Origin: Thermodesulfovibrio aggregans
Lineage (GTDB): Bacteria; Nitrospirota; Thermodesulfovibrionia; Thermodesulfovibrionales; Thermodesulfovibrionaceae
Length of the DNA: 64,000 nt
NCBI RefSeq assembly: GCF_001514535.1
Contig: NZ_BCNO01000001.1
Coordinates: forward strand, 938,859-1,002,858
Direction: 5' to 3'
Every line of letters starts with the position of its first letter. Position 1 is the first letter of the stretch. Of the stretch, positions 30,406 to 55,223 are shown piece after piece. A program made the position numbers and the translations under genes. Below the pieces are notes generated by a model. That model did no database searches. It was not told where the DNA came from and worked only from the letters and a program-made list of their open reading frames with translations.

Positions 30406-30458
30406 AATAGTAGTCTCGTTTAAAAGCCCTTAAAAAATTAGTAGCTCTTGAAATACAC

Positions 30459-30464
30459 TATAAC
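30459..30464 (+). promoter_or_regulatory. Possible -10 element of the reverse gyrase gene
   Basis: TATAAC lies 22 bp before the ATG at 30487, in the 143-bp divergent gap with aspS. No convincing -35 is present. If it is used, transcription begins near 30471, downstream of the alternative TTG start at 30448, which favours the ATG start. Confidence 0.35.
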
Positions 30465-30486
30465 AAGAGGCGATAATAAGAACTAT

Positions 30487-33400
30487 ATGATTTTAAGTCT
30501 ATTTAAAGGCTTATGCCCTAACTGTGGTGGAGAGATAGCTTCTCAAAGACTGGATAAAGGACTTCCCTGTGAAAAGTGCCTTCCAAATGAAGAAGATGAC
30601 CCCTGTAGTTTTATAAAATCTGGAAATTATAAAGAAGTTTGCCTTGTTAAAGAATATGTCCAAAAATGGGAAAAAAATTTTGAAAAATACGTAAAATCAA
30701 AACCATGGAGTCTTCAAAAAACTTGGGCAAAAAGAGTTTTTTCTGGCGTTTCCTTTGCTTTGTTAGCTCCCACAGGAGTTGGTAAGACCTCGTTTGGAAT
30801 CTCTATGGCATCATATCTTGCAAAATTGAATAAAAAATCATACATTATTGTGCCTACAAAACTTTTAGTTGAACAGGTTTCAGAGCGTTTAAAAAATTTT
30901 GGACTTAAAGATGAAATTCTTGGTTTTGTCGAAACTAATGAAAAGCTTAAGGAAAGATTGAAAAAAGGAGATTTTCAAGTTCTTGTTACAACCTCAATGT
31001 TTCTTTACAAAAATCAGGAAATAATTCCACCAGACTTTAGTTTTATTTTTGTTGATGATGTGGATTCCTTTTTAAAAACAGCAAAAAATGTTGACAAAGT
31101 TTTGTATTTACTTGGATTTTCTTCATCTGAAATTAAAAAAGCTCTTGAAGTTATTGCTCTTAAGGCAAAGGTAAAGAAAACTGATGCTGATTGGGAAAAA
31201 ATAAATGAAATTCAAAAGGAACTATATAGTTTAAGAAATACCAAAAAAGGCGTGCTTGTAGTATCTTCTGCTACAAGTCAACCCCGTTCAAACAGAATAA
31301 AAATTTTTCGTGAATTGTTAGGATTTGAAGTAGGAACTCCAACATTTTATTTAAGAAATGTGATTGATACTTTTACTGAAAAAGGTTCATTAGTGGGGTG
31401 GATTAAAAGACTTGGTAAAGGAGGTTTAATTTTTATCTCGTCAGATAAAGGAAAAGAAAAAATAGATGAAATCATAAAAGAACTCAAGAAAAACGGAATA
31501 GAAGCAGTATCATATGAAAATTTAAATGATAGAGCAATATCTAATTTTGAAAAAGGTAGGATAGATGTTTTAGTAGGGATAGCCTCCTATAAAAATCCTT
31601 TAGCTCGTGGATTTGACATGCCTCAAGTTGTAAGATATGCAATCTTTTATGGAGTTCCAAAAATTGTTATTTCTTTAAAATTTGAGTCAAACTTGAGTCA
31701 TCTTCTTTGGGCAGTTTCTTCAATTCGTTCTTTTATCGTTAAAAAAATGCCAAAGTACACACAAAAAATAAATAGTTGGATTAATCAATTAAGAAAATTT
31801 CAGTATTTAGCAGAAGATTTTATAAATTTAAAACCCTCTCTCAAGCAGACAATAGACAATTTAAGAGAACAAATAGGTGATTTTTTCTCATCAAAAGAAG
31901 TTCTGGATTTATTGAATTCTTCTGATGAAATAACTTTAAGATTTACAGAAGAAGGCTATATGATGGTGGTATCGGATGCTACAGGGTATCTTCAGGCAAG
32001 TGGAAGAGTTTCAAGGATGTACGCTGGTGGAATAACAAAGGGGCTTTCTTTAGTTTTAGTGGATGATACAGCTACATTTAAGCATCTTCTACGAAAGGTA
32101 AAATGGTTCAGCGATGAAATAAAGTTTTTGCCTGTAGAAGAGATTGATCTGAGCAGTGTTTTAAAAGAAATAGATGAAGATAGAGCAAAAATTAAAGAAT
32201 TTTTAATGACAAGAAAGCCTCAGGATAGTAAAGATCCCCTGAAACCGGTGTTAGTTATTGTAGAGTCTCCGAATAAAGCAAAAACTATTGCAAACTTTTT
32301 TGGAAAGCCTGTAAGAAGGAAAATTTTTGACCACGATCTTTTTGAAACCTCAATTGAAGATAGATACATAATAATAACATCCTCTTATGGACACATCCTT
32401 GATTTAGTAAAGAATGAAGCTTTTTATGGAGTAGTAGTTAATGAAAGCATTATACCTATATATAAAAGCATTGAAGGTAAAGAATCAATAATCGAAAGCT
32501 TAAGAAAGGTTTCTTTAGAGGCAGAACAGGTTCTTATTGCTACAGATCCAGATACAGAAGGAGAGAAAATCGGCTGGGATATTAATGAGATTTTAAAACC
32601 TTATGTTAAAGATATAAAAAGGATGGAATTTCACGAAGTTACTAAAAAAGCAGTAATTAAAGCATTAAAAGAGCCAAGAGATTTTGATTTTAATCTTATT
32701 AGAGCACAGATTGTAAGAAGAATTGCTGACAGATGGGTTGGTTTTGAGTTTTCTCAGTTACTTCAAAAAAATTTTGGCAAACAGACTCTTTCAGCTGGAA
32801 GAGTTCAGACTCCTGTTTTAGGCTGGATAATTGAAAGACAAAAAGAACACACGCAAAAAATTTACAAAGTTTCATTTTTCATAGAAGAGAATAACAAAAA
32901 ATTGCGATTAAATTTTGAATTCGAAGACAAACAGGAAGCTATGAAATTTTTTACTGATTTAAAAGAAGTTCAGCTTGAAGTTATTTCAACCTCAGAAAAG
33001 ATAGAAATGCCTCCACCTCCTTATAGGACTGATACAATGCTTAAAGATGCTGGAGATTTTTACAGATTTTCTTTACCAAAAACAATGGAGCTTGCTCAAA
33101 CTCTTTTTGAACTCGGATTCATAACTTATCATAGAACTGATTCCCAAAGAGTTTCCGATGCTGGAATTAATGTGGCAAGAGATTTTATAAAAGAGGAGTT
33201 TGGTCTGGAATACTTTTCCCCACGAATTTGGTCTGAAGGAGGTGCCCATGAGTGCATAAGACCTACAAAAGCAATTGAACCAGAAGAATTAAACTCTATG
33301 CTTATAACTGGCCAGATTGAAGGATTAAGTAAAGAGCATCTCCTTCTTTATGAAATGATTTTTAGAAGATTTATCGCAAGTCAGATGAAACCAGTTAAAA

Positions 33401-33891
33401 CTAAAAATGTTGAGATAGTTATTAAAGCATTAAATAGAGAACAGAAGATAAATTTGCGGACAGAGATATTTGAAGAAGGTTGGAACAAGATATTAAATAT
33501 TGAAACTTATCCAGAACTGCAGGGCATTTTTGATGTATCAAAAACAAAACAGTTCAGGCAGCAACCAAAGGTTTATCTTTATACTCATAGTGAGCTTGTT
33601 GCAAAAATGAAGGAAAAGGGAATTGGAAGACCTTCAACCTATGCCAGCATTGTTGAAAAACTTCTTGAGAGAAAATATATCATTGAATCAAAAGGTTTTT
33701 TAATTCCAACAGAACTTGGTAAAGCTGTATATTTCTATTTAAGTAACAGAGAAGAGATAAAAAACTTTCTTTCAGAAGAGTTTACAGAACAACTTGAATT
33801 ATTTATGGATAAAATTGAAGAAGGTGTTCTTGATTATGAAAAAGTGCTTTTTGATTTGTATGAGGAAATTTTAAAAACGAGAAAGCAGTAA
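30487..33891 (+). CDS. rgy: Reverse gyrase
   Basis: Introduces positive supercoils into DNA; a hallmark of thermophiles. The 1134-aa chain starts with a zinc finger (Cys10, Cys13, Cys28, Cys31). Next is a helicase-like domain: Walker A APTGVGKT at 94-101, the reverse-gyrase variant of Walker B VDDVDSFL, and an arginine-finger region ending in QASGRVSRM. A topoisomerase IA module follows, with TOPRIM VIVESPNKAK (Glu593), DPDTEGEK (687-694), SAGRVQTPVLGWI and catalytic Tyr881 in ITYHRTDSQRVS. The second zinc finger usual between the TOPRIM start and DPDTEGEK is missing: that stretch contains no cysteine. The start at 30487 fits the family; a TTG at 30448 would add 13 residues. The 3' end overlaps the convergent hydrogenase protease gene by 21 bp. 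Confidence 0.95.
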   Translation: MILSLFKGLCPNCGGEIASQRLDKGLPCEKCLPNEEDDPCSFIKSGNYKEVCLVKEYVQKWEKNFEKYVKSKPWSLQKTWAKRVFSGVSFALLAPTGVGKTSFGISMASYLAKLNKKSYIIVPTKLLVEQVSERLKNFGLKDEILGFVETNEKLKERLKKGDFQVLVTTSMFLYKNQEIIPPDFSFIFVDDVDSFLKTAKNVDKVLYLLGFSSSEIKKALEVIALKAKVKKTDADWEKINEIQKELYSLRNTKKGVLVVSSATSQPRSNRIKIFRELLGFEVGTPTFYLRNVIDTFTEKGSLVGWIKRLGKGGLIFISSDKGKEKIDEIIKELKKNGIEAVSYENLNDRAISNFEKGRIDVLVGIASYKNPLARGFDMPQVVRYAIFYGVPKIVISLKFESNLSHLLWAVSSIRSFIVKKMPKYTQKINSWINQLRKFQYLAEDFINLKPSLKQTIDNLREQIGDFFSSKEVLDLLNSSDEITLRFTEEGYMMVVSDATGYLQASGRVSRMYAGGITKGLSLVLVDDTATFKHLLRKVKWFSDEIKFLPVEEIDLSSVLKEIDEDRAKIKEFLMTRKPQDSKDPLKPVLVIVESPNKAKTIANFFGKPVRRKIFDHDLFETSIEDRYIIITSSYGHILDLVKNEAFYGVVVNESIIPIYKSIEGKESIIESLRKVSLEAEQVLIATDPDTEGEKIGWDINEILKPYVKDIKRMEFHEVTKKAVIKALKEPRDFDFNLIRAQIVRRIADRWVGFEFSQLLQKNFGKQTLSAGRVQTPVLGWIIERQKEHTQKIYKVSFFIEENNKKLRLNFEFEDKQEAMKFFTDLKEVQLEVISTSEKIEMPPPPYRTDTMLKDAGDFYRFSLPKTMELAQTLFELGFITYHRTDSQRVSDAGINVARDFIKEEFGLEYFSPRIWSEGGAHECIRPTKAIEPEELNSMLITGQIEGLSKEHLLLYEMIFRRFIASQMKPVKTKNVEIVIKALNREQKINLRTEIFEEGWNKILNIETYPELQGIFDVSKTKQFRQQPKVYLYTHSELVAKMKEKGIGRPSTYASIVEKLLERKYIIESKGFLIPTELGKAVYFYLSNREEIKNFLSEEFTEQLELFMDKIEEGVLDYEKVLFDLYEEILKTRKQ

Positions 33892-34359
33892 AGCTTTAAT
33901 CAGAATATTTTTTAAAGTTTCTGCAACATCTAAAATTTTTTCACTCATCCTATTTCCAAAATCTGTGTTTTCAGGCTGAATACCAATTATTAAGATTTCA
34001 GTTTTAATTCTTGATTTTATATAATCAATGCACATTTTAAGATTTGTCTGGTGGGTTGATATTCCTGTATGATACAAATCTTTCTTTTCTAAAAAAACTA
34101 CAGACCCTGGCTCATGATTCATATGTAAAGCATCAATAAAAATAACAGTATCTGGTTTATGATGAACTATTTTTTCAATAAATCTTTCAGGTTGATCTTC
34201 GCAGTCAACTAAAATTGCATCTATTTTTTCATTGCTTAATTTTTTTACAATGTATGAACCGACAGCATCGTCTGCTCTCAAGGAATTTCCTATTCCTGCT
34301 ATTAAAACTCTTCCCTTAATTTTACTTAAAAATTCATTCAACTCCAATTTGTTCTGCAA
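33871..34359 (-). CDS. [NiFe] hydrogenase maturation protease (HycI/HybD family)
   Basis: Endopeptidase that removes the C-terminal tail of the large subunit after nickel is inserted. The 162-aa protein shows VLIAGIGNSLRADDAVGSYI with the metal-ligand acidic residue, FIDALHMNHEPG with the second Asp, and ISTHQTNLKM with the ligand His. These are the three nickel-sensing positions of the family. It is the last gene of the hydrogenase operon and overlaps the small-subunit gene by 26 bp. The large subunit encoded at the operon start does carry a removable tail of 22 residues, so substrate and enzyme match. Confidence 0.9.
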   Translation of the reverse strand: MQNKLELNEFLSKIKGRVLIAGIGNSLRADDAVGSYIVKKLSNEKIDAILVDCEDQPERFIEKIVHHKPDTVIFIDALHMNHEPGSVVFLEKKDLYHTGISTHQTNLKMCIDYIKSRIKTEILIIGIQPENTDFGNRMSEKILDVAETLKNILIKALLLSRF

Positions 34360-34804
34360 TAAGGGGTTTTATTTTCTTTTTAGATATTCCGAGAGCTTGA
34401 GCAATTCCGAAGAGAATTGCTTCTGGACGAGGTGGGCATCCTGGTATGTATAAGTTAACGGGTATTATTTTATCAACTCCACCAACTACATTGTAGCTGT
34501 CAAACCATATACCACCTGCTGTGGCACAGGAGCCAAGAGCAATAACAATTTTTGGTTCTGGAGTTGCTTCATAAACTGATTTGACAAACTCTACAGTAGG
34601 TCTTGTTACAGGTCCTGAGATAACAAGTGCATCTGCATGACGGGGAGAGCTTACTGCCTTCATACCGAATCTTTCAATATCATAGTAAGGAGTAAGAACA
34701 TCAAGAAGTTCTATATCACAGCCATTACATGCTCCTGTATTAACATGAAATATCCATATTGATTTTTTTAGAGCCTTTTGTGCGAGTTTTTTAAGTAAAG
34801 ACAT
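34334..34804 (-). CDS. Group 4 hydrogenase small subunit (NuoB/HyfI-like)
   Basis: Peripheral electron-transfer subunit that carries the proximal [4Fe-4S] cluster next to the NiFe site. Of its 156 aa, the four expected cluster cysteines are visible in NTGACNGCDIELLDVL, IALGSCATAGGIW and YIPGCPPRPEAILFGI. The N-terminal helix is NuoB-like. The longer reading to 34858 is rejected because AAGGAGG stands 8 nt upstream of ATG 34804. The gene lies 13 bp after the HyfF-like gene and overlaps the maturation protease gene. No long N-terminal Tat signal is present, so this is the cytoplasm-facing group 4 type, not a periplasmic uptake enzyme. Confidence 0.92.
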   Translation of the reverse strand: MSLLKKLAQKALKKSIWIFHVNTGACNGCDIELLDVLTPYYDIERFGMKAVSSPRHADALVISGPVTRPTVEFVKSVYEATPEPKIVIALGSCATAGGIWFDSYNVVGGVDKIIPVNLYIPGCPPRPEAILFGIAQALGISKKKIKPLIAEQIGVE

Positions 34805-34817
34805 CTGAACAACCTCC

Positions 34818-36269
34818 TTATCCTGCTGTTTTAATAATTCCTTTTGTTGCCATGTCAATCATTGGATAAATAATTTCTGGATATATTCCAAAAACTATTA
34901 ATAAGATAACTAAAACTCCTGTACAAAATATGATTGAAAAAGGAACAGAACTTTTGAAAACTTCCATTTTTTCATTTTTCTGCCAGAATATTGATATTGC
35001 AGTCCTTAAAAGAGCAATGGCACAGACAAATTCCGATAATATTAAAACTACTGATGCCCACAGGAAGCCTTCATTTGTCAGGGCAATAAATATCGTAATT
35101 GAACTCAAAAAGCTTGCTGTAAGAGGCATTCCTCCTACTGCCAGCGAACCAATGAAAAAGAATATTGTAACAGTTGGCATTTTCCCTATTGATTCCTTTA
35201 TTTCCTCAACTATTCTGCTTCCACAGGCATAAATTATTGCGCCTGTAGCAAAGAATAAGACTCCTTTCATAATTGTATGATTGATAATATGGAAAATGCC
35301 TCCAAATAAACCTTCATAGTTTTTTAAAGCCAAGGCTGATGCTATAAATCCCATTTCACTGATACTAATACAGGCAATCAACTTCTTGATATCCCTTTGA
35401 TTGAATGCAATAACAGCACCTATAAGCATGCTTAATGATGAAAGAATTATAATCAGAACTTTTATCTCTTCATAGTTAAAAGAAAATAGTGTAACTGTTC
35501 TGGCTATTCCATAAAATCCGAGTTTTGTTACTGCTCCAGCTAAAAATACTGTTATAGCTGATGGAGACTCTGCATATGAGTCAGGCAACCAAAGATGGAA
35601 TGGAACTAATCCTGCCTTTGTGAAAAATCCAACAATAAATAAAAATGCAGAAAGAAGAGCAATATTTCTTGGTAAAGTTTTAATTATTTCACCAATATTG
35701 CTTATCATTACAGTTTTTCCAGCCATATAGAAAAGAAGAATAATCCCGAGTAAACTAAAAAGAATTCCCACATTGACTAAAATCAGATATTTGAATCCAG
35801 CCTTTAATGATGTCTTGTTTAAGTTAAAAACTATGAGATAAACTGAGACAATACTGCTTAGTTCAAGTGCTATATAGATCCAGAAAAGATTATTCAAAAT
35901 AAAGGCAAGATTCATAAATGCTAATGCAATAAGTATGACACTATAATAGATATGAAAGCTTTCTTTTCTATGGCTATAAACTTTGCCAATATATTTTGGT
36001 GAATATAAAATTACCATTAAAGCAACAAACTCAACCATTAACTGCATTAGCAGGCTTAATCCATCAATGTAAAACACTTGTCCATAAAATAGTGTTTTTT
36101 CATCAGATGAAAACAGTGTATTCCACGAAAGCACAGTACCAACAATTGCCAGAACTATTGATACAATGGAAATAAAATCTCTTATTAAAGCTCTTTTACC
36201 AAAAAGAAGAATTAGTAAAGAGCCTAATGCTGGAGAGATAAAACTCAGAGTGAGCATAATAAAACTCAT
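34818..36269 (-). CDS. Antiporter-like membrane subunit, HyfF/NuoN-like
   Basis: Proton-conducting membrane transporter family subunit of the hydrogenase membrane arm. The 483-aa protein has about 14 predicted helices. The conserved Glu lies in WIYIALELSSIVSVYL (TM5 type). The conserved Lys is in FFTKAGLVPFHLWLPDSYAESPSA (TM7 and broken helix) and further charged residues are in IIYACGSRIVEEIKES. The order and length resemble HyfF of the formate hydrogenlyase-2 type. It overlaps the HyfE-like gene by 4 bp. It is one of three antiporter-like subunits in this operon. Confidence 0.9.
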   Translation of the reverse strand: MSFIMLTLSFISPALGSLLILLFGKRALIRDFISIVSIVLAIVGTVLSWNTLFSSDEKTLFYGQVFYIDGLSLLMQLMVEFVALMVILYSPKYIGKVYSHRKESFHIYYSVILIALAFMNLAFILNNLFWIYIALELSSIVSVYLIVFNLNKTSLKAGFKYLILVNVGILFSLLGIILLFYMAGKTVMISNIGEIIKTLPRNIALLSAFLFIVGFFTKAGLVPFHLWLPDSYAESPSAITVFLAGAVTKLGFYGIARTVTLFSFNYEEIKVLIIILSSLSMLIGAVIAFNQRDIKKLIACISISEMGFIASALALKNYEGLFGGIFHIINHTIMKGVLFFATGAIIYACGSRIVEEIKESIGKMPTVTIFFFIGSLAVGGMPLTASFLSSITIFIALTNEGFLWASVVLILSEFVCAIALLRTAISIFWQKNEKMEVFKSSVPFSIIFCTGVLVILLIVFGIYPEIIYPMIDMATKGIIKTAG

Positions 36270-36910
36270 TGTTCACTCCCTTGAGAATTTATTTCTTTGA
36301 ATTTTTTAATTTCCTCTCTGAAAAATACTTCATTCAGTCTTATAGTAAGATAAACAAAAAATAGCACTGCCACAACAAAATTAAAAGTTAATGAAATTTC
36401 AATAAGCTTTGGCATATGAGGAATCATGCTTATTATCAGGAAGTGAATTCCGTTTTCAATAATAAAAAAGCTTATTATCATTTTTATCATGTCCTTTTTT
36501 GATATGAATAGATACAATCCATAGATAACAAGGGTTAATCCGCAGGAAAAACCTGAAAGCACCTGAGGCAGTTGATAGACTGTGAATATCTTAACAAAGT
36601 GATAACCAACAGAAAGAACAACTATTGATAGGGCTATGGAAAGAGGATGAGAAATTGAAGGTTTTTCCTCTGTTTCAACTCTATTTTTTAAACACTTAAG
36701 CAAGAATAAAGGCATTAGAATGGCTCTTACAACCAGATCAACTACTCCTATCAAATAGAGAGAGGATATTTCGTAGATATAACCTATGGTAAAGACTGCA
36801 ACAACAATTAAAAGACTATGAGGAACAAGACTTAAAGTTGAAAACTTTAAGCTTTTAGCTTCTCCTGCAAGAAAAGTAAAGAATAAAATTGCAATAAATA
36901 TTATCTCCAT
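36266..36910 (-). CDS. Hydrogenase membrane subunit HyfE-like
   Basis: A 214-aa integral membrane protein with about six to seven helices and a C-terminal charged end. The stretch MIKMIISFFIIENGIHFLII matches the HyfE subunit, a distant relative of NuoK, where a buried Glu lies in the IENG motif. It has no motif for cofactors. It overlaps the HyfF-like gene by 4 bp and is 1 bp from the HyfC-like gene. In known complexes this subunit bridges the antiporter modules, but that role here is by analogy. Confidence 0.82.
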   Translation of the reverse strand: MEIIFIAILFFTFLAGEAKSLKFSTLSLVPHSLLIVVAVFTIGYIYEISSLYLIGVVDLVVRAILMPLFLLKCLKNRVETEEKPSISHPLSIALSIVVLSVGYHFVKIFTVYQLPQVLSGFSCGLTLVIYGLYLFISKKDMIKMIISFFIIENGIHFLIISMIPHMPKLIEISLTFNFVVAVLFFVYLTIRLNEVFFREEIKKFKEINSQGSEQ

Positions 36911-36911
36911 A

Positions 36912-37826
36912 CTAAACTCCTAAAAGAGCTAAAAATATTGATGTTAGTGAAAAAAGAGCAAGAGTTAGATTATATTTCAAAGCCTGATCAATTCTGAGTC
37001 TTGGATTTAGAGCTTCAATAAGGGTGCTTATAAAGATAATTGCCGTTACTTTTATTAAGGCTATCAATATGTTTAACAGAGAGTTTTCTGAAAAAGTCCA
37101 TGGAATAAAAATCTGTGTAAAAACAAGACAGAAAAGAACCTGCCTTGACATATTTGCCCATTTAACACAGGCATATTTAGGACCGCTTAATTCAATAAGT
37201 ACACCTTCTGCAATCTCCTGTTCAGCTTCAGATATGTCAAATGGAATTTTACCAATCAAAGCCTGAAGTGATAGAAACACACAGACTGTTGCAAGAAGCA
37301 TGGAGACATTTGGTCCGTTTGAATAATACCATGTAACAATATCACCAATTTTAAAAGAGCCAGCATTTATAGCACCTGTTATAAGTGCAATTGCAAGAAT
37401 TGGCTCAACTGAAAGATGAAGCATCATTTTACGGGATGCACCAATAAAGGCAAAAGGATTTTCAGAGGCTGAAGCAGTAATAATTATTGCAATTCCAACA
37501 ACTGTAATTATATAGATGAAGAGAAATATATCTCCCCAGAAATTTAGCGGAGGAATCAATCCAGTAATAGGTATTAAAAGAGATGCCATACCAATGCTTA
37601 CAACTGAAAGATATGGTGAGAGTCTGAAAAGGGGATTTATAGTTGATTTTAAGTCTTCCTTCCCCATTAACTTGATAATGTCATAGTATGACTGAAGAGG
37701 TGGAGGTCCTACTCTGCTTTGAATCAATGCTCTTACCTTTCTTGTAAATCCATCAAAAAAAGGAGAAAGAAGCAAAACAACAAACAGGTTTACAATGGTT
37801 GAATATATGAGAAATTCAGGATTCAT
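36912..37826 (-). CDS. Hydrogenase membrane subunit HyfC/NuoH-like
   Basis: The subunit that anchors the peripheral arm to the membrane. The 304-aa protein has about eight helices. NuoH signatures are visible: ALIQSRVGPPPLQSYYDIIKLMGKED, a loop near the quinone-side cavity in complex I; IPFDISEAEQEIAEGVLIE, with its cluster of acidic residues; and the C-terminal LNPRLRIDQALKYN. It overlaps the HyfB-like gene by 4 bp. Confidence 0.92.
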   Translation of the reverse strand: MNPEFLIYSTIVNLFVVLLLSPFFDGFTRKVRALIQSRVGPPPLQSYYDIIKLMGKEDLKSTINPLFRLSPYLSVVSIGMASLLIPITGLIPPLNFWGDIFLFIYIITVVGIAIIITASASENPFAFIGASRKMMLHLSVEPILAIALITGAINAGSFKIGDIVTWYYSNGPNVSMLLATVCVFLSLQALIGKIPFDISEAEQEIAEGVLIELSGPKYACVKWANMSRQVLFCLVFTQIFIPWTFSENSLLNILIALIKVTAIIFISTLIEALNPRLRIDQALKYNLTLALFSLTSIFLALLGV

Positions 37827-39886
37827 AAGCTTCCTCCTGAAAAATAAAACAGTAAAATCAAGATAAAAATACTACCAACTATGAGCCATGCAATATATTT
37901 TTTTGTCGTCGAGTTATGTAATTTCTCAGCTGATTCAAATAGTTTTGTCAATCTGTTTGCAACTGGATAATAAAGCCATTCATCGGGATGAAGAATTTTT
38001 AAAAATTTTTCTGGCACTGAAACTTTTATTGATGGAGTTGTAACAGGATAAAATCCTTTAAATTGAATCTTTCCAATTCTGAAACTTACAAGGTCTTTAA
38101 AGGGCTGATAAAAGCTATGTCCTCTATACGCTACTTCTTCAGGAGTATGTTCTTTTCCACCATACCATGTTTCTACTTCTCTCTTTGGAGTTCCAGCATA
38201 CTTTTCAAAGGAAAATATAAGAATACTGAGAATTATCAAAGGAATCATAACGAAAACAGGAAACCATGCCCCCTGAGAATAATTTTTAATAAAGTTTATA
38301 TCAACTCCTGCAAAATTAACTGTGAAAACTGAGGAAAAATCCGGTAAAAAGTTGTATGAAGCCAAAGTGGCAGCATAAATAATTTTTAAAGAAATCATTG
38401 GAAATAATCCTGTTAAAATACACAATCCTGCAAGTATAAGCTGTGGCAGAACCATGCTCCAGGGTAAGTCTCTTTTTTCATCAAATGTGCCTTCAAGCTT
38501 TCCCATAAAAGCAGAGTTTACAAACTTAAGAAAAGATGCCAGAGTTACTGCAGAGATAAAAACAGAGATTATTCCAAAAACTATGAAAGTTCCCCTGGTC
38601 AGTAAGAATACTTCTGACTGTTTTGCTGACCAGATGGAGGACTCAAAAATGAGAAGTTTTGAAATAAAACCATTAAAAGGTGGAACTCCGGCTATTGATA
38701 AAGAGCCAATTAGAGCAGTTATTGCTGTAAGTGGCATTACTTTCATCAATCCTGAAACCCTGTTAAGATCAGTTGTTCCTGTTTTATAAAAGATAGAGCC
38801 GGCATTTAAAAATAAAAGGCTTTTATAAATGGAGTTATTGAAAACATGAAATAATCCTCCAACCAGTGCAACAGCAGCGACAAAAGGATTAATTTTTATA
38901 AAATAGAGTCCCACACCAATGCCAAGAAGCATATATCCAACCTGTCCAATTGCATGAAAGGACATGAGTCTTTTAGCTTCATCCTGTGTTAATGCAGCAA
39001 TTGTTCCAACAAATATTGAAAAAACTCCCGAAACTGCGATTATAAACCCCCATACTTGAGTATAAAAAGAAACAGGAAACACTGAGCAGAAAAATCTGAG
39101 GAGTGCATAAACTGCAAGCTTTGACATTACTCCACCAAAGAAAGAAGAAGCAGATGAAGGAGGTTGCGGGTATGTATTTGGTAACCAGAAACCAAAAGGT
39201 AGAACACCTGCCTTTGTTACAAAGGCAATAAAAATAGAGAACAATATAAAATGGGCAATTGCTGGATGATTATTGATGATAAACTCAAAACTTTTGTTTA
39301 TTGCTTTAAAAGAGAAATCATTGCTGTATGAATAAATAATTACAGAGGCAAGAATTAAAAATGCTGTTGTTACATGGGTTGCGATAAAGTACTGAAGTCC
39401 TCCCTTAATTGCTGATTTTTTTTCTCTTTCAAAAACAACAAGAAACCATGAACTGAGAGTCATAAACTCCCAGAAAACTATGAAAAACAGAATGTCTTTT
39501 ACACAGACAACTCCTGAAGAAGACATAAAAAGCAACATTAAAAATGGATAAAAACTAACAGGTGAATTTTCTTTATAGGCATTAAGATACTTCCATGAAA
39601 ACATGGAAACACAGAAAGAAATAATAGAGATTATTAAAAGAAAAAGAGCAGATAGAGAATCAATGCTTAAAAGAAGTGAAGAATTCAGAATTCCCTTAAA
39701 TGAAAACACTTCATATTCAATAACTTTATTTTCTGATATCACATCTATTGAAACAGAGAAGAGACAGAGTGAAGAAATAAGCGTTAAAGTGGTAGCTAAA
39801 AATCCTGAAATAGTTTTATTTTTGATGAATGATGTCAGTATGGCACCACAAATCAGGGCTAAAAATGAAACATAGAGATATTGCAT
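37823..39886 (-). CDS. Antiporter-like membrane subunit, HyfB-like
   Basis: The largest membrane subunit (687 aa) and the second of three antiporter-like proteins. Around residues 100-450 it has the proton-conducting core: Glu in FIVFWEFMTLSSWFLVVFE, and Lys in VTKAGVLPFGFWLPNTYPQP. A further charged Lys/His pathway lies in VGGLFHVFNNSIYKSLLFLN. The long C-terminal region (about 540-660) is hydrophilic, and a final membrane helix LIVGSIFILILLFYFSG closes it, as in HyfB/HycC. It overlaps hyfC and hyfD neighbours by 4 bp and 1 bp. Confidence 0.9.
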   Translation of the reverse strand: MQYLYVSFLALICGAILTSFIKNKTISGFLATTLTLISSLCLFSVSIDVISENKVIEYEVFSFKGILNSSLLLSIDSLSALFLLIISIISFCVSMFSWKYLNAYKENSPVSFYPFLMLLFMSSSGVVCVKDILFFIVFWEFMTLSSWFLVVFEREKKSAIKGGLQYFIATHVTTAFLILASVIIYSYSNDFSFKAINKSFEFIINNHPAIAHFILFSIFIAFVTKAGVLPFGFWLPNTYPQPPSSASSFFGGVMSKLAVYALLRFFCSVFPVSFYTQVWGFIIAVSGVFSIFVGTIAALTQDEAKRLMSFHAIGQVGYMLLGIGVGLYFIKINPFVAAVALVGGLFHVFNNSIYKSLLFLNAGSIFYKTGTTDLNRVSGLMKVMPLTAITALIGSLSIAGVPPFNGFISKLLIFESSIWSAKQSEVFLLTRGTFIVFGIISVFISAVTLASFLKFVNSAFMGKLEGTFDEKRDLPWSMVLPQLILAGLCILTGLFPMISLKIIYAATLASYNFLPDFSSVFTVNFAGVDINFIKNYSQGAWFPVFVMIPLIILSILIFSFEKYAGTPKREVETWYGGKEHTPEEVAYRGHSFYQPFKDLVSFRIGKIQFKGFYPVTTPSIKVSVPEKFLKILHPDEWLYYPVANRLTKLFESAEKLHNSTTKKYIAWLIVGSIFILILLFYFSGGSL

Positions 39887-41331
39887 TACTGCCCTCCTGA
39901 TAAAGCTTCAATAAAGTAATAACCAATGAGAGGAGAAAGCAGACTCAAAATCAGTAGTATTATCAAGCTAAACTTCATTGACAAAGGTATTGTACAGTTA
40001 GCATTCGATACTTTATGTGATGCTTGGCCAAAAAAGACTCTGTGTCCAACAAAAATATACCAGCAAAAAGCAAGGATGCTCTCAAAAATTGCAATTATAC
40101 CGAAAATATTGGCAGTTGTATTTTTAATCTCAAAGGCTCCTGTAAAAATCATGAATTTACTCCAGAACCCTGAAAAAGGTGGCACTCCTATTATTGCAAA
40201 CATTCCTGTAAGAAAGCAGGCTGTAATAAGAGGAAATTTCTTTGAAACTCCCTGAAGTTCTCTTATACTTTTTGAACCTGTCGCATAGGCAATTGCACCA
40301 ACTGAAAGAAAAAGCAGCCCCTTTGCAAATCCGTGGTTAATTATGTGAAAGACTCCACCCATTCCTCCTGTTTTTGAACCATAAATTCCTAAAGATACAC
40401 CAAAGAGAATGTATCCAAGATGTCCTATTGTTGAGTAGGCAAGCAGTTTTTTTAGATCATCCTGAAAATAGTATAAAATTACAGAAAGCATCATTGTTGA
40501 GACAGCGATAATGCCTGTAACAAGAGCTTCATTTTCTGTTAAAGAATAATTGGAAAGATAAATCCTTGCCATCAGATAAACACCTGCTTTAACCATTGCG
40601 GCTGCATGAAGATAGGCACTAACAGGTGTTGGAGCAACCATTGCATCAGGCAACCATGTAAAAAGAGGTATTTGAGCTGACTTTGCAGATGCTGCAAAAA
40701 ACAGAAGTGCAAAAATAACGAACTTGTAGGAAACAAAATCAATTACTGAAAAATCAAAGGATTTTGCCTGATAATACATTAATCCAAGAGCAATTAAAAA
40801 GCCCAATCCACCGATATGGGTCATTATGAATGCCTTTAATCCAGAAAACAAAGCCTTTTTTTCTTTTGTGTATGAAATCAGTGCCCATGAACATAGAGTT
40901 GTGATTTCCCAGAAGAAAAATAACTGTAAAAAGTTGGCTGCTGTAGCAACTCCAACCATTGCACCAATAAAAAGAAGCATAAGGAAATAATAACTCCCAT
41001 ATGGTTTATAAAATGGATGGTCAGCATTTTGAGGAGACATGTATCCACAGGAGTATAAAATTACAAAAAAGCCAATTACAGTGATTAGAATAAGCAGAAT
41101 TGATGTTAAAGGATCGCAAATAAGTCCAAAATTAGCATTCAACCACTTAAATAGTGAAAAACTGTAGTAGATTTTAACTTTTGAGAGAGAGGTTTCAAAA
41201 ATGCTGAGCAGACTGAATAAAAGAGTGAGCAGAGAAAATAAAGAGGCGATAACTGCAGCTTTATTTTTAAATGTATAAGATAGCAAAGCTCCGATAAAAG
41301 GTGTTATTAATGTTAAAAGAAGAAAATCCAT
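39886..41331 (-). CDS. Antiporter-like membrane subunit, HyfD/NuoL-like
   Basis: The third antiporter-like subunit (481 aa, about 14 helices). Typical motifs are FFFWEITTLCSWALISYT (Glu of TM5), SAKSAQIPLFTWLPDAMVAP (Lys of TM7 and the broken helix), and AYLHAAAMVKAGVYLMARI. The pair FHIINHGFAKGLLFLSVGA carries the central Lys/His path. The presence of HyfD in addition to HyfB and HyfF is the E. coli hydrogenase-4 (Hyf) set, larger than the hydrogenase-3 (Hyc) set. It begins 9 bp after the ferredoxin gene. Confidence 0.9.
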   Translation of the reverse strand: MDFLLLTLITPFIGALLSYTFKNKAAVIASLFSLLTLLFSLLSIFETSLSKVKIYYSFSLFKWLNANFGLICDPLTSILLILITVIGFFVILYSCGYMSPQNADHPFYKPYGSYYFLMLLFIGAMVGVATAANFLQLFFFWEITTLCSWALISYTKEKKALFSGLKAFIMTHIGGLGFLIALGLMYYQAKSFDFSVIDFVSYKFVIFALLFFAASAKSAQIPLFTWLPDAMVAPTPVSAYLHAAAMVKAGVYLMARIYLSNYSLTENEALVTGIIAVSTMMLSVILYYFQDDLKKLLAYSTIGHLGYILFGVSLGIYGSKTGGMGGVFHIINHGFAKGLLFLSVGAIAYATGSKSIRELQGVSKKFPLITACFLTGMFAIIGVPPFSGFWSKFMIFTGAFEIKNTTANIFGIIAIFESILAFCWYIFVGHRVFFGQASHKVSNANCTIPLSMKFSLIILLILSLLSPLIGYYFIEALSGGQ

Positions 41332-41340
41332 GGACGCTCC

Positions 41341-41829
41341 TCATGAAGTTGCTTTTCTTTTACATTCAGCACATATTTTAAGTTTGTTAATCTGCTCTTC
41401 ACTTTTGTCCTGAAGTCTTTCAATTTGTTTGTTTAACATATTCCATGAAGTAAAAGGCTTCCCACAAACAATACACCTTACCATTTTTATTTTAATTACA
41501 ATCTCAAGGTCCTTTTTGTTGTCCGTGGCAAGTTCATACTCATGAGTTATGCGGATTGCTTTTTCCGGACAGGCAGCAGCACATCTTCCACAGTAGATAC
41601 ATCTACCCGATGAAAACATCACTATTTTCTCATCTTCGTGAGTTTCAATAGATATTAACCTTGAAGGGCAGGTTCTTACACAGTTTCCACATCCTATACA
41701 TTTGTTTGGGTCAACCTCAAGTCTTCCCCTCAGATTTTCAGGTGGAGTTACAGGAACAAAAGGATAGGGTCTTGTTATTTTTTTATGTCTTGATGAAAGT
41801 AAAAGTGCTTTTATTTTACTTTTAAACAT
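41341..41829 (-). CDS. Ferredoxin-type hydrogenase subunit (HyfH/HycF-like)
   Basis: A 162-aa iron-sulphur protein that passes electrons to the small subunit. Two [4Fe-4S] motifs are seen: CIGCGNCVRTCP (about 44-55) and CIYCGRCAAACP (about 77-88). A C-terminal CIVCGKPF and a later ICAECKRK make a CxxC...CxxC pair. The same pair exists in HycF/HyfH proteins and is probably a zinc or extra cluster site. The N-terminal stretch with YPFVPVTPPENLRGR is typical of the HyfH group. It overlaps the large-subunit gene by 8 bp. Confidence 0.92.
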   Translation of the reverse strand: MFKSKIKALLLSSRHKKITRPYPFVPVTPPENLRGRLEVDPNKCIGCGNCVRTCPSRLISIETHEDEKIVMFSSGRCIYCGRCAAACPEKAIRITHEYELATDNKKDLEIVIKIKMVRCIVCGKPFTSWNMLNKQIERLQDKSEEQINKLKICAECKRKATS

Positions 41830-43441
41830 TTTTTAGTTCCTCTGGTGTATAAACTTTCACAGAGTTTTTCTTTAAATCAATAACCTCATATCTTTCAGTG
41901 CATGAAAAACATGGATCAATGCTTCCTATAATCAAAGGAGCATCGGCTATTGAAGATCCTTTAAGCATAACAGAAAGAGCCTGATAATTCTGGTATGACG
42001 GAGCTCTAACACTCCATCTATAAGGTCTTCCATCAGGACCTGTCATAACATAGTGAAAGAGTTGTCCTCTTGGTGCTTCAATATAGGATATAGCCTCTTT
42101 CCATGGCTCAATTTTTGAGACTTTTACTGATGTTTGACCCTCTGGCATATTTTCAATAATCTGTCTGAGAATATTAATTGAAACTAAAATTTCATCCAGC
42201 CTAACAAGAGTTCTTGCCCATACATCACCTGTTTTATTTAATGGGACTCTCAGATTTAGCATAGAATAGGCAGCATAGGGAAAATTAACTCTCATATCAA
42301 TATTTATTCCTGAAGCTCTTGCAACAGGTCCACATACAAAGTATTTTTTAGCATCATCATGTTTAAGAATTCCAACATTTTTAAATCTAAGCTGTATTAC
42401 TTCATCATCAAGAATAATTTCTCTGAGTTCTATTACCTCTTTTTCTATTTCACCTATTATTTTTTCTATGTCTTTTAAATGCTCGGGTTGAACATCAATG
42501 GTTACTCCTCCGACAATATTTATTCCATAGGTTTTTCTATTTCCTGTTATAATCTCGCATATATACATAACAGGCTCACGAATTCTCCACGCCTGCATGA
42601 AAAGTGTATCAAAACCAACTATATGAGCTGCAAGCCCAACCCATAAAAGATGGCTGTGAAGCCTTTCAAGTTCAAGAAACATGCTGCGAATGAATTTAGC
42701 TCTTAGAGGAATTTCAATATTTGCAGCTTTTTCAACTGCCTGACAGTATGCACAGGAATGTACAAATCCGCAGATGCCACATATTCTTTCTGCAAGAAAT
42801 GGAATCTGTTGATAATTTAGAGCACTCTCAGCAAGCTTTTCAATCCCTCTGTGAACATAAAAACCTCTGTAGTCAAAATCAACAATCTCTTCTCCTTCTA
42901 CAATCAGCCTGAAATATGCAGGCTCTTCAAGAGATGGATAAAAAGGACCAATTGGGATAACTGTTTTCCCTTCCTCTGGTTTTTTAAGAGGTGGAGGTTG
43001 TTTTGTTTCAGGCGGTTTGGTATTGTAGGAAAAACTTTTTCTTAATGGATGAACTCCTTCGGGCCAGTTATCAGGAAGAACAAGTCTTCTTGGATCAGGA
43101 TGTCCTTCAAATTTTATTCCGAATAGATCATTACACTCTCTTTCAGCCCATATTACAGCCGGAATTACTTCAGAAATTGAAGATATTGAGAGTTCTGACT
43201 GCTCTAAGGGTGTTTTTACAATCACATTCATTCCATCTTTTATAAGTGAAAAGAAGTAGTTGAGTTCAATCTGATTTCTCTGATTGATAAAGTCAATGGC
43301 TGTAAGATGAACAAATCTTGCTCCTTGCATTATAAGAATTTTTGCAATTTCTTTTATTTGAGAAGGATTTGCGTGAATAACAAGATTTTCCTCGGTTGTT
43401 TCGATTTTTTCAGCGACATTTGCTATGAGATTTTTTTCCAT
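41822..43441 (-). CDS. Group 4 [NiFe] hydrogenase large subunit (NuoC-NuoD fusion, HyfG/HycE-like)
   Basis: The catalytic subunit that evolves or oxidises hydrogen. In the 539-aa protein, residues 1-135 form a NuoC-like domain (AERECNDLFGIKFEGHPDPRRL). The remainder is NuoD-like: the N-terminal nickel site is ERICGICGFVH (Cys221, Cys224) and the C-terminal one is DPCFSCTER (Cys511, Cys514), so all four nickel ligands are intact. A 22-residue tail beyond Arg517 is the expected cleavage product of the maturation protease encoded last in the operon. The intact cysteines separate it from hydrogenase-like Ehr or complex I proteins. It is the first gene of the operon. No Shine-Dalgarno is visible, and GATAAT lies about 10 bp before the ATG. 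Confidence 0.94.
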   Translation of the reverse strand: MEKNLIANVAEKIETTEENLVIHANPSQIKEIAKILIMQGARFVHLTAIDFINQRNQIELNYFFSLIKDGMNVIVKTPLEQSELSISSISEVIPAVIWAERECNDLFGIKFEGHPDPRRLVLPDNWPEGVHPLRKSFSYNTKPPETKQPPPLKKPEEGKTVIPIGPFYPSLEEPAYFRLIVEGEEIVDFDYRGFYVHRGIEKLAESALNYQQIPFLAERICGICGFVHSCAYCQAVEKAANIEIPLRAKFIRSMFLELERLHSHLLWVGLAAHIVGFDTLFMQAWRIREPVMYICEIITGNRKTYGINIVGGVTIDVQPEHLKDIEKIIGEIEKEVIELREIILDDEVIQLRFKNVGILKHDDAKKYFVCGPVARASGINIDMRVNFPYAAYSMLNLRVPLNKTGDVWARTLVRLDEILVSINILRQIIENMPEGQTSVKVSKIEPWKEAISYIEAPRGQLFHYVMTGPDGRPYRWSVRAPSYQNYQALSVMLKGSSIADAPLIIGSIDPCFSCTERYEVIDLKKNSVKVYTPEELKNV

Positions 43442-53914: not shown

Positions 53915-54232
53915 ATGGATGAGGAAAGAGGTTTTTCTGCAAAGTCAGTATTTTTATCCTTTTTACTTGGTGGTATTGTAGGAGCTGGACTGGCTTTACT
54001 TTTAGCTCCTCAGTCGGGTAGAGAAACAAGAGCAAAAATTAAAGAAACAGCAGAGGATGTAAAAGAAAAGGCTGAAACTTATTTAAAAGAGGCAAAAGAA
54101 AAGATATCTGCTACCCTTGATAAAGCTAAAGAAACTCTTGAAGAGAAAAAGACTGCCATAACAAAAGCTGTAGAAGCAGGAAAAGAAGCTTACGAAAAGG
54201 AGGTCTCTAAAGAGAAGGAGCAAGAAAGCTGA
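53915..54232 (+). CDS. YtxH-domain protein
   Basis: A 105-aa protein with the YtxH pattern: a glycine-rich membrane segment FLLGGIVGAGLALLLAPQSG (about 16-35, with the characteristic LLAPxSGxETR) and a long Lys/Glu/Ala-rich helix (about 40-105). YtxH is a general-stress protein in Bacillus; the biochemical role is unknown. It sits 2 bp after the DUF948 gene and shares one base with hypA. The link to hydrogenase maturation is probably only operon sharing. Confidence 0.8.
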   Translation: MDEERGFSAKSVFLSFLLGGIVGAGLALLLAPQSGRETRAKIKETAEDVKEKAETYLKEAKEKISATLDKAKETLEEKKTAITKAVEAGKEAYEKEVSKEKEQES

Positions 54233-54579
54233 TGCACGAAGCATCAATTGCTTATGAATTGCTCAATATCGCAGTAAATGAATGTCACAAAAATGGATAC
54301 AAAAGTATAGATTCAATAAAAGTTGTAGTAGGCAGAGCAACAGGTGTAATGACTGATGCTCTGCTTTTTGCCTTTAATGTTTTAAAAAAAGACACCATTG
54401 CTAAAAATGCAAAGTTGATAATTGAGGAACTTCCAGTTAGAGGAGTTTGTAAGGACTGCGGAAAAGAGTTTGAAAGTAATGAAAATTATATTATTTTTGA
54501 ATGCCCCAATTGTGGAAGTTTTTCAGTAAATTTGCTTTCAGGTAAAGAACTTAACATAACTGAAATGGAGGTTAGCTGA
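54232..54579 (+). CDS. hypA: Hydrogenase nickel metallochaperone HypA
   Basis: Delivers nickel to the large subunit of [NiFe] hydrogenases together with HypB. The 115-aa protein begins MHEASIAYELLN, with His2 as the nickel ligand. Then comes VVVGRATGVMTDALLFAFNVLK, and the structural zinc site is GVCKDCGKEFE plus FECPNCGS. Length is typical. It overlaps YtxH and hypB by 1 bp on each side. The structural hydrogenase operon lies about 11 kb upstream on the other strand, and hypC, D, E and F are not in this window. Confidence 0.92.
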   Translation: MHEASIAYELLNIAVNECHKNGYKSIDSIKVVVGRATGVMTDALLFAFNVLKKDTIAKNAKLIIEELPVRGVCKDCGKEFESNENYIIFECPNCGSFSVNLLSGKELNITEMEVS

Positions 54580-55223
54580 TGAAAGTAAAGTTAACAACAA
54601 AAATTCTAGATGCAAATGACAGAATTGCAGAAGAAAACAAAAGAATGTTTAAAGATGCAGGAGTTTATGTAATAAACCTTATGAGTTCTCCAGGCGCAGG
54701 AAAAACTTCTTTACTTGAGAAAACTATTTCAGCAATAAAGGATAAAGTTAAAGTTGGAGTTATTGAGGGTGATATTACTGGCACTAATGATGCAGAGAGA
54801 ATAGAAAGACTTGGTGTTCCTGTTGTTCAAATTAATACTGAAGGAGCATGCCATCTTGATGCAAACATGATAGCTGAAGCAGCCCGAGAACTACCACTTA
54901 AAGATTTAGATGTTCTTTTTATTGAGAATGTTGGTAATCTTGTATGTCCTGCAGAGTTTAAGGTTGGAGAAGATATGAAAGTAATGATTTTGAGCATTAC
55001 TGAAGGTGATGACAAACCACTTAAGTATCCTCTCATGTTTCAGGAATCCTCTGTTTTGCTTATAAATAAAATTGATCTCAAAGATTTACTTGATGTAAAC
55101 ATTGAAAAGATTAAAAAGGACGCTCAATTTTTAAATCCTAAAATCAAAATATTTGAGATATCCTGTAAGACAGGGCAGGGAATTAATGAGTGGACCAGCT
55201 GGCTTCTGACGAATATTTCATGA
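54579..55223 (+). CDS. hypB: Hydrogenase nickel incorporation GTPase HypB
   Basis: Energises nickel insertion. The 214-aa GTPase has the P-loop SSPGAGKT at 36-43, VGVIEGDITGTNDAERIE as the switch region, and TEGACHLDANMIAEA with its Cys-His metal site. NVGNLVCPAEFKVGEDMKV follows, and the NKxD motif appears as LLINKIDL. There is no His-rich N-terminus of the storage type and no N-terminal CxxCGC motif. It shares 1 bp with hypA and overlaps tadA by 34 bp. Confidence 0.93.
   Translation: MKVKLTTKILDANDRIAEENKRMFKDAGVYVINLMSSPGAGKTSLLEKTISAIKDKVKVGVIEGDITGTNDAERIERLGVPVVQINTEGACHLDANMIAEAARELPLKDLDVLFIENVGNLVCPAEFKVGEDMKVMILSITEGDDKPLKYPLMFQESSVLLINKIDLKDLLDVNIEKIKKDAQFLNPKIKIFEISCKTGQGINEWTSWLLTNIS

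Follow-up and report, generated by a model that had tools for sequence, protein, structure and literature searches.

A nine-gene Hyf-type operon

In a 64,000-nucleotide stretch of the Thermodesulfovibrio aggregans genome (hereafter the window; contig NZ_BCNO01000001.1, positions 938,859 to 1,002,858), the minus strand from 43441 to 33871 carries a complete, intact block of nine genes that encodes a Hyf-like group 4 [NiFe] hydrogenase and its maturation protease, in the order G-H-D-B-C-E-F-I-protease (Table 1). Adjacent genes overlap or are spaced by no more than about 10 bases. All nine assignments are backed by Pfam and NCBIfam profile matches, which uphold the gene order, the extent and the three antiporter-like subunits proposed in an earlier sequence-only reading of this DNA. 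The operon probably encodes a reversible, ion-translocating, membrane-bound ferredoxin:H2 hydrogenase of the Hyf type that lies beside the group 4a clade and would work without the HycB–FdhF module through which formate is oxidized in Escherichia coli.

Table 1. Genes of the Hyf-type operon, with positions in the window
Product	Position	Strand	Support
Large catalytic subunit, HyfG/HycE-like, NuoC-NuoD fusion	41822..43441	-	PF00329, PF00346, PF00374
HyfH/HycF-like 2x[4Fe-4S] subunit, C-terminal CxxC...CxxC metal site	41341..41829	-	Pfam/NCBIfam and alignment
HyfD-like antiporter subunit	39886..41331	-	NCBIfam 'hydrogenase 4 subunit D', 553 bits
HyfB-like antiporter subunit	37823..39886	-	NCBIfam 'hydrogenase 4 subunit B', 376 bits
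HyfC/HycD-like NuoH-type membrane subunit	36912..37826	-	PF00146, 197 bits, and alignment
HyfE-like membrane subunit, NuoK-type C-terminal part	36266..36910	-	NCBIfam 'hydrogenase 4 membrane subunit', 55 bits
HyfF-like antiporter subunit	34818..36269	-	PF00361, 200 bits
HyfI/HycG-like small subunit, one [4Fe-4S] site	34334..34858	-	PF01058, 114 bits
HycI/HyfK-like large-subunit maturation protease	33871..34359	-	PF01750, 55 bits; TIGR00142 hycI, 111 bits

Catalytic core and membrane arm

The large subunit has all four nickel ligands, in the motifs RICGIC (C221 and C224) and DPCFSC (C511 and C514), and they are conserved throughout the genus. It also has the C-terminal peptide for cleavage, which matches in alignment the peptide removed from E. 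coli HycE, so the view in the sequence-only reading that this is a real hydrogenase appears sound. Identity to E. coli HycE and HyfG is 39–41%, and the best match in the PDB is the E. coli formate hydrogenlyase (FHL; 7z0s_E, 428 bits), followed by the Pyrococcus membrane-bound hydrogenase (MBH; 249 bits) and complex I (246 bits). The small subunit, 48% identical to HycG, has the cysteines for a single cluster (C44, C47, C111 and C141); its annotated TTG start (34858) probably lies upstream of the true ATG, which we place near 34804. In HyfH, a C-terminal cysteine quartet is retained in 7/7 loci of the genus; the equivalent quartet of E. coli HycF contacts HycB in the structure (PMC9474812).

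Elsewhere in the Nitrospirota (L016-L034 and L061), most of the sampled full-length HycE-like homologues are without all four nickel cysteines. These proteins are therefore not hydrogenases, and an annotation as hydrogenase would be wrong there. Given how abundant such homologues are in the phylum, the Thermodesulfovibrio complex might likewise be a hydrogenase-related assembly that performs no H2 chemistry. We regard this as scarcely credible, because the loss of nickel cysteines that marks the nickel-less, hydrogenase-related (Ehr) proteins is not seen: the four ligands kept across the genus stand here together with the processing peptide and a dedicated protease.

Three antiporter-like subunits, HyfB-, HyfD- and HyfF-like, contribute to the membrane arm. 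In the antiporters of complex I, four key charged residues carry protons. All four are kept in the HyfD-like subunit (Glu142, Lys217, Lys248 and Lys392) and in the HyfB-like subunit (Glu140, Lys225, Lys256 and Lys410). The HyfF-like subunit keeps Glu136, Lys218 and Lys249, but the Lys/Glu of transmembrane helix 12 is replaced by Ser390; this position is Ser or Ala in 8/8 Thermodesulfovibrio loci (L062-L069), whereas HyfB and HyfD keep Lys, and the contribution of HyfF may thus be altered. E. coli HycC lacks the Lys of transmembrane helix 7, which all three Thermodesulfovibrio antiporter subunits retain.

Absence of the formate-docking parts

With both E. coli Hyf and Hyc/FHL, the operon shares the NuoC–NuoD fusion, the HycF quartet, the HyfB/C/D/E/F-type arm and the HycI-type protease. 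It differs from them in lacking HycB/HyfA, HycH/HyfJ, FdhF, FocB and FhlA/HyfR, and in its permuted gene order. The absences recur across the genus. HycB/HyfA is encoded in 0/7 genus operons compared with 64/71 canonical loci (several of the seven canonical loci without it are short contigs), and HycH/HyfJ in 0/7 compared with 70/71. The small subunit extends 31–36 residues beyond its PGCPP motif in the genus, compared with 114–135 residues in canonical loci. There are two HycB-like matches in the vicinity of genus loci, but these are encoded on the other strand, next to an NrfD gene.

Set against the published groups, the enzyme has several hallmarks of group 4a: a HycE/HyfG-type NuoC–NuoD fusion with four nickel cysteines and a cleavable C terminus, the HycF tail quartet and a HycI/HyfK-type protease. 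What it does not have is a large subunit that falls inside the 4a clade, HycB/HyfA, a cytoplasmic formate dehydrogenase with catalytic selenocysteine (Sec) or Cys, HycH/HyfJ or the long HycG tail. The genome shows no CO dehydrogenase partner of the kind that characterizes group 4c, and the operon contains no Mrp-type antiporter module as in group 4d. Its fused C/D subunit and three antiporters also set it apart from the group 4e Ech enzymes, which have six subunits, separate NuoC and NuoD and one antiporter.

Phylogenetic placement

Large-subunit trees place Thermodesulfovibrio outside a clade (support 100/100) to which E. coli HycE and HyfG and every canonical locus included belong, and in a separate tree of the small subunit and HyfC it likewise falls outside the FHL clade (100/99). 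The Thermodesulfovibrio enzyme is thus a lineage beside, and not inside, the canonical group 4a clade, although it is built from the same parts. When further relatives are added to the large-subunit tree, its sister is a set of sequences from one other phylum that we call clade X (95/86). The union of the two is weak in the tree of the small subunit and HyfC (75/48), and an approximately unbiased (AU) test does not reject Thermodesulfovibrio as sister to FHL instead of to clade X (p-AU 0.10). What is firmly established is therefore no more than that Thermodesulfovibrio does not nest within FHL. The trees are to be read as comprising no references for groups 4b, 4f (described as formate-coupled but hypothetical), 4g, 4h and 4i, or for CooH, EhfE, MahB and Sulfurospirillum HyfG. 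In a plasmid collection, only 4a and NuoD homologues occur among the matches listed.

Distribution in the genus and previous description

Thermodesulfovibrio is a genus of thermophilic sulfate reducers. The large subunit is encoded in 11/11 of its genomes searched, that of T. aggregans included, and the full operons of congeners retain the complete gene order. Preservation of the operon in every examined congener with a sufficient contig is far beyond chance. Named relatives at 72–86% identity include Thermodesulfovibrio metagenome-assembled genomes and strain N1, whose large subunit is 77–78% identical and whose gene order is the same. In strain N1, hyfD (L053:3142-4615; L064) is read as two overlapping frames, reflecting a frameshift or a sequencing error.

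The same operon was described in Thermodesulfovibrio sp. N1 as HyfGHDBCEFI (THER_0390-0379) by Frank et al. 2016 (PMC5165239). There, a group 4 hydrogenase was noted in all five Thermodesulfovibrio genomes compared, and ferredoxin was proposed as the electron donor of the N1 operon. The existence of the operon has therefore been in print since 2016 and is not new, which limits the surprise. Nor is formate-independent Hyf unprecedented, as that of Sulfurospirillum is well studied and has no formate genes in its cluster (PMC6242987, PMC5357620); the sequence-only reading, which saw here a candidate for an incompletely described system, is not supported by these two precedents if that is taken to mean a largely undescribed one. 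The account of N1 covers eight genes, omits the protease and, in the passages considered, does not discuss the phylogenetic place of the enzyme or the missing HycB, HycH and HycG-tail features. New here are the placement outside the canonical 4a clade, the recognition of these missing features, the survey of possible donor enzymes in the genome, and the membership in or near a wider set of HycB-less relatives.

Candidate electron donors

In and beside the operon there is no gene for a HyfA-type ferredoxin, a regulator or a formate dehydrogenase, and the neighbouring genes agree on this point with what had been read from the sequence. FhlA/HyfR and FocB, sought at the locus only and not genome-wide, are not encoded beside it. 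The genes upstream of hyf in congeners are neither conserved nor redox partners: they are leucine-biosynthesis-like or encode CNNM/CorC, MutS, CoaE, riboflavin kinase or WrbA, and we accordingly rejected a conserved neighbour as the donor. Thermodesulfovibrio SKYB3 has a divergently oriented Nuo-like cluster immediately upstream of hyf (L065:3-7942).

Elsewhere in the T. aggregans genome there are four molybdopterin-family proteins, of which only one is a formate dehydrogenase. This protein, FdhA, has Sec186 followed by His, the catalytic Arg and its own FdhB, together with a twin-arginine translocation (Tat) signal that makes it periplasmic; the other three lack the equivalents of FdhF His141 and Arg333. 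One periplasmic formate dehydrogenase is also listed by Frank et al. 2016 (PMC5165239). A formate dehydrogenase encoded at a distance was rejected as partner on these grounds. An FHL assembled with such an enzyme is accordingly very improbable, even though a Sec-containing FdhA is present and E. coli fdhF likewise lies outside the hyf operon, because the Tat-signalled FdhA is paired with its own FdhB, the hydrogenase subunits face the cytoplasm, and the operon has neither HycB/HyfA nor HycH nor the HycG tail.

We also rejected a CO dehydrogenase partner. The sole PF03063 match in the genome begins MFCRQCEQT and reads as what we take, from this motif, to be a hybrid-cluster protein. The sequence-only reading had named clustering in a well-studied group, together with a partner elsewhere in the genome, as the outcome that would overturn it; instead the large subunit falls outside the 4a clade and the genome has neither a cytoplasmic formate dehydrogenase nor a CO dehydrogenase. 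A HydB/HydG-type NAD(P)H module acting in trans was rejected as well, as the only Fer4_22 protein sits in the operon of a soluble group 3b-type hydrogenase.

Among the Fer4_11 proteins of the genome we found no orphan cytoplasmic HycB-like adaptor: they are Tat-exported or tied to other enzymes (FdhB, Psr/Tsr-type partners or an aldehyde:ferredoxin oxidoreductase neighbour). A cytoplasmic oxidoreductase encoded elsewhere could nevertheless dock on the HyfH tail, either a PsrAB-like pair or an aldehyde:ferredoxin oxidoreductase with its small ferredoxin. The retained HyfH quartet would offer a site, and two signal-less Fer4_11 proteins occur in such contexts. We consider this arrangement improbable, because both candidates are tightly linked to other enzymes (PsrAB lies beside a Nuo-like cluster, a linkage also reported for strain N1; PMC5165239) and no gene is conserved in linkage to hyf in the genus. 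The PsrB-like ferredoxin gene by the Nuo-like cluster (L046:13321-14161; L186) is accompanied by a partial duplicate next to a transposase fragment.

By elimination, reduced ferredoxin, as the sole low-potential cytoplasmic donor that is clearly available, is the most likely donor. It was the first of the options offered by the sequence-only reading and agrees with the proposal of Frank et al. 2016 for N1. The genome encodes several 2-oxoacid:ferredoxin oxidoreductases that would supply it: there are five POR-domain matches, among them a KorAB-type pair and a PorGDAB set that immediately precedes a Nuo-like cluster.

Proposed mode of operation

We hypothesize that the peripheral arm is cytoplasmic and would exchange electrons directly with reduced ferredoxin at the two-cluster subunit HyfH. 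From there electrons would pass to the small subunit with its single cluster and on to the Ni–Fe site, where protons would be reduced to H2 on the cytoplasmic side, and the free energy released would drive ions (perhaps H+ and not Na+) through the HyfB/D/F/C/E membrane arm. Ferredoxin electrons from the oxidation of pyruvate or another 2-oxoacid would probably be vented as H2 when an acceptor is short or when a partner removes H2. Running in reverse, the enzyme would probably reduce ferredoxin with H2 during growth on H2 and acetate. Fermentative or syntrophic growth would go with H2 evolution, and growth on H2 plus acetate, for which pyruvate has to be synthesized, with ferredoxin reduction. 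Both the direction of flow and the pumping are inferred from the proteins encoded.

The closest guide to the likely working mode is the MBH of Pyrococcus furiosus (group 4d; PDB 6cfw), a ferredoxin-coupled, ion-pumping [NiFe] hydrogenase. It differs in having a separate NuoC-type subunit and an Mrp module, both absent from the Thermodesulfovibrio operon. In Sulfurospirillum, the production of H2 from pyruvate by pyruvate:ferredoxin oxidoreductase (PFOR) and ferredoxin has been proposed and partly supported (PMC6242987). Compared by published gene list only, the Hyf of Sulfurospirillum multivorans (HyfABCEFGHI) has HyfA and is without HyfD, the opposite of Thermodesulfovibrio.

Several points weigh against direct coupling to ferredoxin. 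The Sulfurospirillum enzyme is an inexact precedent, since it keeps HyfA (PMC5357620). The retained HyfH quartet, whose counterpart contacts HycB in E. coli, means that a partner other than free ferredoxin may dock. Ferredoxin also has other outlets for its electrons, namely the POR-linked Nuo-like complex and an Mvh-Hdr complex that the genus is reported to have; two Nuo-like complexes without an NADH module were described by Frank et al. 2016 (PMC5165239).

The same enzyme might instead run mainly in reverse, using H2 and the ion gradient to reduce ferredoxin for the synthesis of pyruvate from acetate and CO2. For growth on H2, Thermodesulfovibrio requires acetate, and it lacks an autotrophic C1 pathway (PMC5165239). 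POR therefore depends on low-potential ferredoxin to make pyruvate, and POR genes are present. We nonetheless think a predominantly reverse role rather unlikely, because Mvh-Hdr could provide reduced ferredoxin by bifurcation (PMC5165239) and H2 evolution prevails among canonical group 4 relatives; the sequence itself gives no direction.

Relatives with a different putative input module

Clade X (L070 and others), present in some 40 of 201 genomes from the other phylum, contains the closest relatives of the Thermodesulfovibrio enzyme outside its genus, with 48–51% identity in the large subunit and 58–69% in the small subunit. Its loci also lack HycB/HyfA and HycH, and the small-subunit extension measures 47–71 residues. 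They usually start with a Fer4_22 protein (13/16) and a FAD/NAD-binding protein (14/16), often together with a formate-dehydrogenase-like protein that lacks the Sec/Cys, His and Arg of FdhF (9/9 alignable sequences) but keeps the [4Fe-4S] cysteines (8/9). Without its catalytic residues, this protein more probably relays electrons than oxidizes formate. At its head, the clade X operon (L070:2339-15992; L168-L182) has a set of genes that recalls the NuoG/NuoF input of complex I.

Comparison of the two sets of operons suggests that their electron-input modules are exchangeable. We tentatively raise the idea, in which our confidence is somewhat short of even, that Thermodesulfovibrio and clade X together form an unrecognised group 4 subgroup, sister to FHL and without HycB and HycH. 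Its input module would be exchangeable, comprising a dead formate-dehydrogenase-like relay with flavin/NAD(P)H input in clade X and no module, with direct use of ferredoxin, in Thermodesulfovibrio. Subgroup status depends on the 4b, 4f, 4g and Sulfurospirillum references that are absent from the trees.

The phylum that holds clade X also encodes shorter group-4-like large subunits with one in-frame TGA in the matched region (G316, G344, G351, G363, G377, G433 and G471). These are possibly group 4 enzymes with selenocysteine (NiFeSe).

Surroundings of the operon

The operon is flanked by a convergent reverse gyrase gene and a divergent WrbA gene. The reverse gyrase gene (window 30445-33891), here in a Nitrospirota genome, is complete and overlaps the end of the protease gene by about 20 bases. 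Two genes that read as hypA and hypB, whose products serve nickel insertion, are located on the opposite strand at a distance of about 11 kb (window 54211-55220). Upstream of the operon we found no sigma-54 promoter of the kind that precedes E. coli hyf, matches being at chance level, and a sigma-70 promoter scan of the upstream region gave no match.

Implications

Because Hyf-type enzymes are commonly classed as formate hydrogenlyases, an automated assignment would attribute a formate metabolism to Thermodesulfovibrio. A lineage without the formate-docking parts offers a natural minimal Hyf for the study of ferredoxin coupling and of ion pumping by a three-antiporter arm, free of the formate module. 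In clade X, a Hyf core is combined with a flavoprotein and a dead formate-dehydrogenase-like subunit, and this has a bearing on the question of how the NuoG-type input module came to complex I.

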